This document shows positions 10,555-45,458 of a DNA stretch of 64,000 nucleotides, one piece after another (position 1 is the first letter of the stretch; each line of letters starts with the position of its first letter). Made by a program: the position numbers and the translations under genes. Source of the DNA: Alteraurantiacibacter aestuarii. GTDB taxonomy: Bacteria > Pseudomonadota > Alphaproteobacteria > Sphingomonadales > Sphingomonadaceae. The stretch is from contig NZ_WTYY01000005.1 in NCBI RefSeq assembly GCF_009827405.1, forward strand, positions 62,001-126,000. The letters run 5' to 3'. The notes beneath the pieces were generated by a model, which was given only the letters and a program-made list of their open reading frames with translations, was not told where the DNA came from and did no database searches.

Positions 10555-10646
10555 TCGTCATGCTGAACTTGTTTCAGCATCCATTCGACCGCACACTCCA
10601 TAGTGCATGGGACGAAATGGACCCTGAAACAAGTTCAGGGTGACAG
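10555..10646. repeat. Inverted pair of REP palindromes (REPIN-like)
   Basis: REP copy 1 is at 10555-10584 (TCGTCATGCTGAACTTGTTT then CAGCATCCAT), with an 8-bp stem ATGCTGAA/TTCAGCAT. Copy 2 is at 10617-10646 in the opposite orientation, with stem ACCCTGAA/TTCAGGGT. They are separated by 32 bp. Both fit the consensus CGTCATSSTGAACTYGTTTC followed by AGSRTCCAT, also found at 45054 and 45429. The pair fills the gap between the divergent dapB and sirtuin genes and could form a long hairpin. Confidence 0.9.
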
Positions 10647-45053: not shown

Positions 45054-45083
45054 CCGTCATCCTGAACTCGTTTCAGGATCCAT
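45054..45083. repeat. REP palindrome, copy 3
   Basis: CCGTCATCCTGAACTCGTTT then CAGGATCCAT, stem ATCCTGAA/TTCAGGAT. Same family and orientation as the copy at 10555. It contains the stop codon of the GIY-YIG reading frame (45073-45075). Confidence 0.92.
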
Positions 45084-45408
45084 CTCCCGGCGCGCGCTGC
45101 TCAAGCGGATCAAAGCCCAAGCCAACGGCCAAGTCTTCCCAATGCGGATTGCCAGTTTCGATCAAATTGATCTTCCACTGCCGGTGCCAGTTCTTGAGCT
45201 GCTTCTCGCGCGCGATGGCAGCCTCCATGGTGTCGAACATGTCGAAATGGACGAGGCGGTGGATTTTATAGCGCCCGGTGAAGCCGCCTGTGGTTCCGCT
45301 CCGGTGCTGGTGCAGCCGTCCCATCAGGTCCGACGTGACGCCAATGTAGAGCGTTCCGTAATGCCCGCTGGCGAGGATATAGGCGCACGGGTTGCGTTCG
45401 AATTGCAT
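45073..45408 (-). CDS. Stand-alone GIY-YIG nuclease (URI-domain) protein flanked by REP elements
   Basis: 111 aa from ATG 45408 (MQFERNPCAYILASGHYGTL); the frame is open from ATG 45453. The GIY-YIG core is YILASGHYGTLYIGVTSDL, with Arg in DLMGRLHQH and Glu in TMEAAIAREKQLKNWHRQWK, the catalytic and metal residues of the family. Such short proteins are frequent in sphingomonads, but their role is unclear. Both ends of the open frame fall in inverted REP palindromes, which suggests that gene and REPs move as one unit. Placed antisense between ruvA and dsrE-ruvB. Confidence 0.87.
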   Translation of the reverse strand: MQFERNPCAYILASGHYGTLYIGVTSDLMGRLHQHRSGTTGGFTGRYKIHRLVHFDMFDTMEAAIAREKQLKNWHRQWKINLIETGNPHWEDLAVGLGFDPLEQRAPGDGS

Positions 45409-45428
45409 GCACGGGATTGTGCCGCTGG

Positions 45429-45458
45429 ATGGATGCTGAAACAAGTTCACCATGACGA
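45429..45458. repeat. REP palindrome, copy 4 (inverted)
   Basis: ATGGATGCTGAAACAAGTTC then ACCATGACGA, inverted relative to copy 3, with one mismatch in the 8-bp stem. Its minus strand encodes the start of the longest GIY-YIG frame (MVNLFQHP). Confidence 0.9.

Follow-up and report, generated by a model that had tools for sequence, protein, structure and literature searches.

The locus described here raises the question of whether a small stand-alone nuclease of the GIY-YIG type could be the enzyme partner of the short palindromic repeats (REPs) that enclose its gene. It lies in the window, by which we mean the whole stretch of 64,000 nucleotides of Alteraurantiacibacter aestuarii DNA that was analysed, and its repeats are of the CGTC type. 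According to the part of Di Nocera et al. (2013; PMC3733652) that was available, CGTC REPs are one of two REP superfamilies, apparently have no dedicated transposase, and their mover is left open. The GTAG REPs, as far as the available part of PMC8266576 goes, are cut as single strands by TnpA_REP. Among the matches listed, with preprints and most subscription journals outside the scope, there was no literature linking GIY-YIG genes to REPs, and the words 'GIY', 'nuclease' and 'transposase' are absent from the main text of PMC12306157, to which a word search was confined. The features of the window that bear on the question are these:

45054..45458: complete unit of REP, gene and inverted REP, with the tags outward
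45054..45083, plus strand: left CGTC-type REP, class A, with its tag at 45055-45058, an 8-bp stem, a 5-nt loop and a CCA tail
45073..45408, minus strand: stand-alone GIY-YIG nuclease gene, 111 codons plus stop
45166..45387, minus strand: GIY-YIG catalytic domain (PF01541 match)
45429..45458, minus strand: right CGTC-type REP, class A, worn
45451-45453: ATG of the longest open reading frame, inside the right REP
10557..10644: gene-free REP doublet of class A (10557-10583 plus, 10618-10644 minus; the doublet of locus L002)

That a GIY-YIG gene stands between oppositely oriented REPs, as an earlier note on this DNA had claimed, was confirmed: the gene matches PF01541 with 51.4 bits (E 1.3e-13), the REP matches fall at 45056-45082 on the plus strand and 45430-45456 on the minus strand, and both REPs fold as a hairpin with CGTC tag, stem, 5-nt loop and CCA tail. 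The left REP, folded as single-strand DNA, forms an 8-bp stem at -6.1 kcal/mol (z -3.9), and the right REP reaches -4.4 kcal/mol (z -2.9), each of its stem arms having one unpaired position, for which reason we call it worn. The two REP cores are 374 bases apart, a spacing that is equal in other ruv-site units, and the unit encodes the GIY-YIG protein only. The further claim that the reading frame both begins and ends within the REPs held for its end alone: the stop codon TGA (45073-45075, minus strand) is in the 3' stem arm of the left REP, and the start falls in the right REP only if the longest open reading frame is taken. With the nearest start codon upstream of the domain taken as the start, the class A genes begin at 45408 or two codons off (10 aligned genes), so that a true start within the right REP is unlikely and the N-terminus MVNLFQHP of the longest frame is, judging from this alignment, probably not translated. 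The C-terminus runs into the REP (..DGS or ..NGS, then the stop) in 6 of the 10 aligned genes.

Membership of the protein in the GIY-YIG family is indicated by the Pfam domain together with conserved active-site residues; Y10, Y21, G23, R31, E68 and N87 do not vary among 28 aligned relatives, and which of these are catalytic is our own presumption. A profile search found the UPF0213 structures 1zg2 and 1ywl (E 2.7e-10 and 1.1e-6), and the AlphaFold2 model (pLDDT 84) was nearest to 1zg2 (E 9.7e-4) and then to Slx1 (6seh, E 9.2e-3). The fold is thus the same as that of the UPF0213 and other stand-alone GIY-YIG nucleases and of Slx1, a eukaryotic branched-DNA nuclease that works with Slx4; we know of no REP wrapping in any of these.

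The genome from which the window comes (G000, 2.24 Mb, 70% complete) has two PF01541 matches, and the second gene (C3:133640, L009) is also wrapped in REPs, of another type with the core ATTCCCGCGAAGGCGGGAAT. Further gene-free REP doublets stand at other sites of this genome. The REPs beside L009 and those beside a gene of Neisseria gonorrhoeae (L229) share a ATTCCCGCG..GGCGGGAAT core and are, we presume, akin to the dRS3 repeats of Neisseria, for which no gene partner is known to us. A profile search found no Y1_Tnp (PF01797) in G000, within the limits of a 70% complete genome, and across the genus PF01797 occurs in 3 of 40 genomes, where the loci concerned (~3.3 kb) are without any of the six REP cores; no matching RAYT transposase was thus found beyond the window either.

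Wrapping was surveyed by scoring spanning inverted repeats, in the genus between the 250 bases upstream of each gene and the reverse complement of the 350 bases downstream, with a cut-off of at least 20 and with other positions in the same loci as the control. PF01541 matches are present in 39 of the 40 genus genomes, and 81 loci remained after matches that had long open frames and scored low were set aside as UvrC; L088-L090, which are among the 81, lie outside the small GIY-YIG family. A spanning repeat was found in 63 of these 81 loci, as against 22 of 1319 control positions (at a cut-off of at least 18, 68/81 against 54/1319), and the pairing in the window is therefore not a matter of chance. 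Among 80 loci of relatives, mostly Sphingomonadales, that came from a search with the A-type alignment, 71 scored at least 20, compared with 112 of 1624 control positions; at least three of them (L135, L140, L143) look like genus records already counted. A profile built from 28 sequences matched 189 of 299 Pseudomonadota genomes, from which 67 were sampled as the best-scoring matches, one locus per genome and with the own genus excluded. After one locus was dropped for a flank cut by a contig end, 47 of 66 scored at least 20 (29/641 control positions) and 19 scored below, and a few of the scores look like coding-vs-coding matches. The result was weaker for the Bacteroidota, the phylum of Psychroflexus and so labelled from the record title of L204, where 91 of 148 genomes match the profile, some with more than 10 copies, and 13 of 30 loci scored at least 20 (5/281 control positions). 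In a plasmid collection a flanking inverted repeat was seen at 10 of 13 loci, including those of Neisseria gonorrhoeae, Azospirillum, Spirosoma, Planktothrix and Aeromonas; no inverted repeat was found around the gene in the R. tumorigenes, Rhizobium K1/93 and Photobacterium loci of the 13. A finder for tag plus hairpin that makes no use of REP classes returned outward-tagged hairpins on both sides of 26/78 genus, 48/80 relative and 20/67 Pseudomonadota loci, the respective controls giving 0/951, 0/1335 and 0/190; inward ones on both sides were returned at 0, 8 and 4 loci. The small GIY-YIG genes are, then, specifically associated with CGTC-type REPs.

REP classes A-F were defined by the analyst from the arms found in the genus, before the class tests, and for this reason the class-free evidence is that of the spanning-repeat tests and the tag-plus-hairpin finder. 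A named class was present on both sides of 60 of 78 genus genes, and in 58 of the 60 it was the same class, where shuffling gave a mean of 12.2 and a maximum of 23; five of the 78 had no named class at all. On a tree of 77 GIY-YIG domains, many forks of which are unresolved, REP class required 8 changes against a shuffled mean of 48.7, with none of 200 shuffles as low, and 12 changes when 'none' was counted as a class. For two genes whose sides differ in class (L036, L053) the label was set by hand after the left REP, and class B is scattered on the tree, with 7 changes. Since a common position alone could produce a match of class and lineage, the flanks were clustered into contexts, which placed the 77 genus genes in at least 29 of them. 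With one gene drawn per context (26 per draw) the mean was 6.5 changes against 16.4 shuffled (0/2000 as low), and with labels shuffled within genomes, 20 of which carry more than one REP class, the 8 changes stood against a mean of 38.4 and a minimum of 28 (0/1000 as low). REP class follows GIY-YIG lineage. The exception is G024: here the ruv site carries an A-lineage gene that is flanked left and right by REPs of class D, from which it follows that both ends changed together. The proposal that a GIY-YIG nuclease takes the place of a RAYT as REP partner gains support from this match; mobilisation has not been shown.

The reading that we prefer, and think rather probable, is that CGTC-type REPs have a dedicated partner in the stand-alone GIY-YIG nuclease, the gene and its outward inverted REPs being one unit of a widespread element family. 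That the nuclease mobilises the REPs is an inference, no cleavage or movement having been observed; it is the best reading available, and we hold it with moderate confidence. The nuclease would recognise REPs of its own class in their hairpin or cruciform form and nick at the REP, whereupon host replication or repair may copy or release the unit between the two inverted REPs, and short REP doublets (~62 or 111 bases spacing) could be non-autonomous copies moved by the same enzyme. As to the chemistry, hairpin nicking is our tentative first choice among single-strand nicking, homing-like break repair and excision.

The doublets are the commonest setting of REP-A away from the gene. There are 98 copies of REP-A in 16 of the 40 genus genomes, of which 80 lie more than 500 bp from any A-type gene, and most of these 80 belong to short doublets, as is expected of non-autonomous copies; the doublet at 10557..10644 in the window is a candidate for such a copy. 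Neighbouring REP-A pairs are plus-minus in 33 of 34 cases, with spacings of 61-65 (16 pairs), 110-114 (9) and 374 (6) and single pairs at 55, 78 and 428, and the inner sequences of the doublets vary between sites. Of 61 REP-E copies, 53 are without a gene alongside. REP-A outside the unit was found in 8 of 10 genomes with an A-type gene versus 7 of 30 without (p 0.002), and REP-E in 5 of 6 with an E-type gene versus 7 of 34 without (p 0.006), by Fisher tests that ignore the kinship of the genomes. Several genomes carry REPs without the cognate gene; in G005, where the genus scan gave no match to a small GIY-YIG gene, there are 9 copies of REP-A and 3 of REP-E. The earlier note had held that REPs occurring mostly without a link to GIY-YIG genes, together with a RAYT of matching REP type elsewhere, would refute its idea, and the 80 distant REP-A copies go some way towards this without being fatal to it.

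Whole units are present at some sites and absent from the same sites in kin, which, along with the recurrence of inverted REPs around relatives, supports the view of gene and REPs as one unit. In Sphingobium plasmids a unit lies between fnrL and a response-regulator gene in seven records, of which four were read (TomMM7A, TomMM15, TomTYG46, TomTYG73). In TomTYG64 and TomTYG74 a single palindrome stands there, made up of the outer half of each REP, and both unit and palindrome are missing from TomTYG72, TomTYG65 and S. herbicidovorans. The junction in TomTYG64 and TomTYG74 falls within 8 bases that the two REPs have in common as a direct repeat, so this REP-only state can be a plain deletion, which counts against its use as support for a moving unit; in two 50-kb Sphingobium stretches no REP difference was found beyond the fnrL site. 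In Azospirillum lipoferum 4B the gene, with REP doublets to its left and right, is located between sufB and sufC, the sufB-sufC gap of A. oryzae, A. ramasamyi and strain B510 is without the gene (flanks 94-95% identical), and in Shinella PSBB067 this gap contains an independent unit whose REPs are different ones. For the unit of Rhizobium CIAT894, a plasmid comparison of its surroundings gave no clean empty site.

The REPs could instead be kept rather than moved by the enzyme. A structure-specific nuclease, Slx1- or UvrC-like, would cut REP hairpins or cruciforms, and the REPs would be its substrate or regulatory sites, spread by slippage, recombination or other enzymes. The similarity in fold to Slx1 and UPF0213 fits such a role, as does a hydrolytic GIY-YIG chemistry for which we know of no strand-transfer step; the REP-only Sphingobium state is explainable by deletion, and the R. 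tumorigenes and Rhizobium K1/93 genes have no REPs. By itself, however, a keeper leaves unexplained that a gene lineage keeps its REP class from one site to another, and its role alone does not account for a duplication in G427 (L383). Here two units flank another gene and are 91% identical from CGTC to GACG, and their flanks are at shuffle level (left 39% vs 34%, right 35% vs 39%), so that in this one duplication, L383, each breakpoint lies at a REP tag, which also speaks for the preferred reading. No target duplication was seen by eye at the L383 junctions and the unit has no DDE transposase, in both of which it is unlike a DDE insertion sequence. L383 is the sole close within-genome duplicate outside tandem arrays with both ends at tags: the L407/L410 copies remain similar for ~68 bases beyond the right REP, the L394/L395 copies (80%) begin at the tag and end early, and several other close duplicates are tandem. 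We consider a pure keeper role unlikely.

A second alternative is that the nuclease breaks a REP-like target in an empty allele and repair copies the unit in, with the REPs as recognition site and homology arms. GIY-YIG homing enzymes are a known class; the unit shares with them the catalytic domain and presence or absence at one site, and Sphingobium sister plasmids carry units at the same site as the REP-only alleles. The ruv region could be read likewise. Of the 80 relatives, 26, spread over several genera, have ruvA or ruvB within 3 kb of the GIY-YIG gene (21 antisense, 5 sense), and the site holds 10 genes in the genus, namely 9 of the 10 labelled A and the G024 gene. The earlier note had named conservation of the gene at this site across distant genera as a refutation; that was met in part, by these 26 relatives, and is not fatal. 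Where the gene stands with respect to the dsrE-like gene varies: in G000 it comes immediately after ruvA, in G026 and G027 it lies further downstream. In 22 of 30 congeneric ruvA loci the 1.5 kb that follow ruvA are without such a gene. As the ruvA-ruvB site is common to several genera, the window copy is a long-standing or recurring inhabitant of the ruv region and not a fresh insertion, and a recent insertion at a unique site was dropped for the same 26 relatives. Homing of this kind has against it the outgroup-like empty alleles (TomTYG65, S. herbicidovorans, TomTYG72), which are without REP; REP-only alleles occur in 2 Sphingobium plasmids and REP-free ones in these 3. Unlike GIY-YIG homing endonucleases, the gene is not in an intron or intein, is bounded by REPs and occupies at least 29 contexts in one genus. 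Doubly tagged palindromes are also rare (0 of class A and 2 of class D in 319 loci), for which they were dropped as the usual target. We find the homing variant doubtful.

It is possible, too, that the paired hairpins are terminators or control elements that insulate or switch a cargo gene and are inherited along with it, with no role in movement. REPs stand at both gene ends, often overlapping the stop codon, and can fold in RNA or DNA, folding having been computed here for DNA. The same classes are, however, abundant without the gene (80/98 REP-A, 53/61 REP-E), the tags point outward on both sides, and the L383 duplication ends at the tags, all of which makes this account very improbable. 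To a coincidental or hitch-hiking pairing of gene and REPs in shared intergenic niches we give next to no credence: both REPs and accessory genes are indeed intergenic and the ruv site is common to many species, but the same-locus controls were low in the genus, relative and Pseudomonadota surveys and with the hairpin finder, the class was the same on both sides in 58 of 60, and the match of class and lineage within genomes strongly disfavours it.

The reading of the unit as mobilised by its nuclease also has evidence against it. The class A of the window is mostly bound to the ruv site (9 of 10 genus genes labelled A), which counts against it, as do genomes with REPs and no cognate gene (G005), genes without REPs, the class mismatch of G024, the scatter of class B and the scarcity of clean duplications.

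In architecture the GIY-YIG/CGTC-REP units resemble the RAYT or TnpA_REP systems (GTAG-REPs, REPINs, REPtrons): a gene for a DNA-cutting enzyme stands between inverted REPs, REP type is matched to enzyme lineage, and gene-free short doublets occur elsewhere in the genome at fixed spacings (REP-A 61-65, 110-114). They fail two defining features of those systems, having a GIY-YIG enzyme where RAYT-REP has a Y1 HUH transposase and a CGTC tag where it has GTAG. With the CGTC superfamily they share the tag, an 8-9 bp stem that opens with A-T pairs, a 4-5 nt loop, a CCA tail and a mostly head-to-head dimeric arrangement. These features are met for class A; the other classes vary in stem and tail, and class C has no plain CGTC hairpin. 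The difference from the superfamily as described in the available part of PMC3733652, where no transposase gene is associated, is the associated GIY-YIG gene.

One of the two large families of bacterial palindromic repeats has been missing its partner, and the GIY-YIG enzyme is a good candidate for that role, since related genes are wrapped alike and each lineage has its own palindrome type. With a candidate gene and matched REP classes in several lineages, the mover of CGTC REPs becomes testable at the bench. We lean, by a little, towards a new class of mobile element, in which CGTC-REP units are moved by a GIY-YIG equivalent of a transposase, doublets are the offspring, and enzyme and palindrome coevolve class by class, in Pseudomonadota, Bacteroidota, a cyanobacterial plasmid and Neisseria; if true, this would explain the origin of a large share of bacterial short palindromic repeats. 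Should the enzyme move REPs, a hydrolytic nuclease fold would have a role so far given to HUH transposases, and should it merely cut them, CGTC repeats would still gain a dedicated enzyme.

Some further observations concern particular loci. The class C frames read stop-free through the REP (PSTSSG or similar) into a domain that we take from its motif to be JAMM-like, giving fused frames of ~230 residues (L011, L012, L017, L019, L020, L022, L023, L031, L040, L044). Many small GIY-YIG copies in the genus, Pseudomonadota and Bacteroidota scans are broken by internal stop codons, as is expected of a family with fast turnover. A genome of 0.8 Mb labelled candidate division Kazan (G337; including L384) has 14 profile matches to small GIY-YIG genes, and in L379 (1431-2750) three tandem GIY-YIG units, ~93% identical, repeat with a period of ~411-420 bases and with REPs between them. 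On a Planktothrix plasmid (L231) inverted repeats surround the gene, whose neighbours are an MmeI-type restriction gene on one side and the DISARM gene drmA on the other. Finally, the REP-GIY-YIG unit copies at L413 890-1495 and L414 891-1497 are 93% identical and were dropped as a REP-bounded duplication, their ends resembling what we take, from the motif, to be integron attC sites; the unit may therefore ride in gene cassettes.
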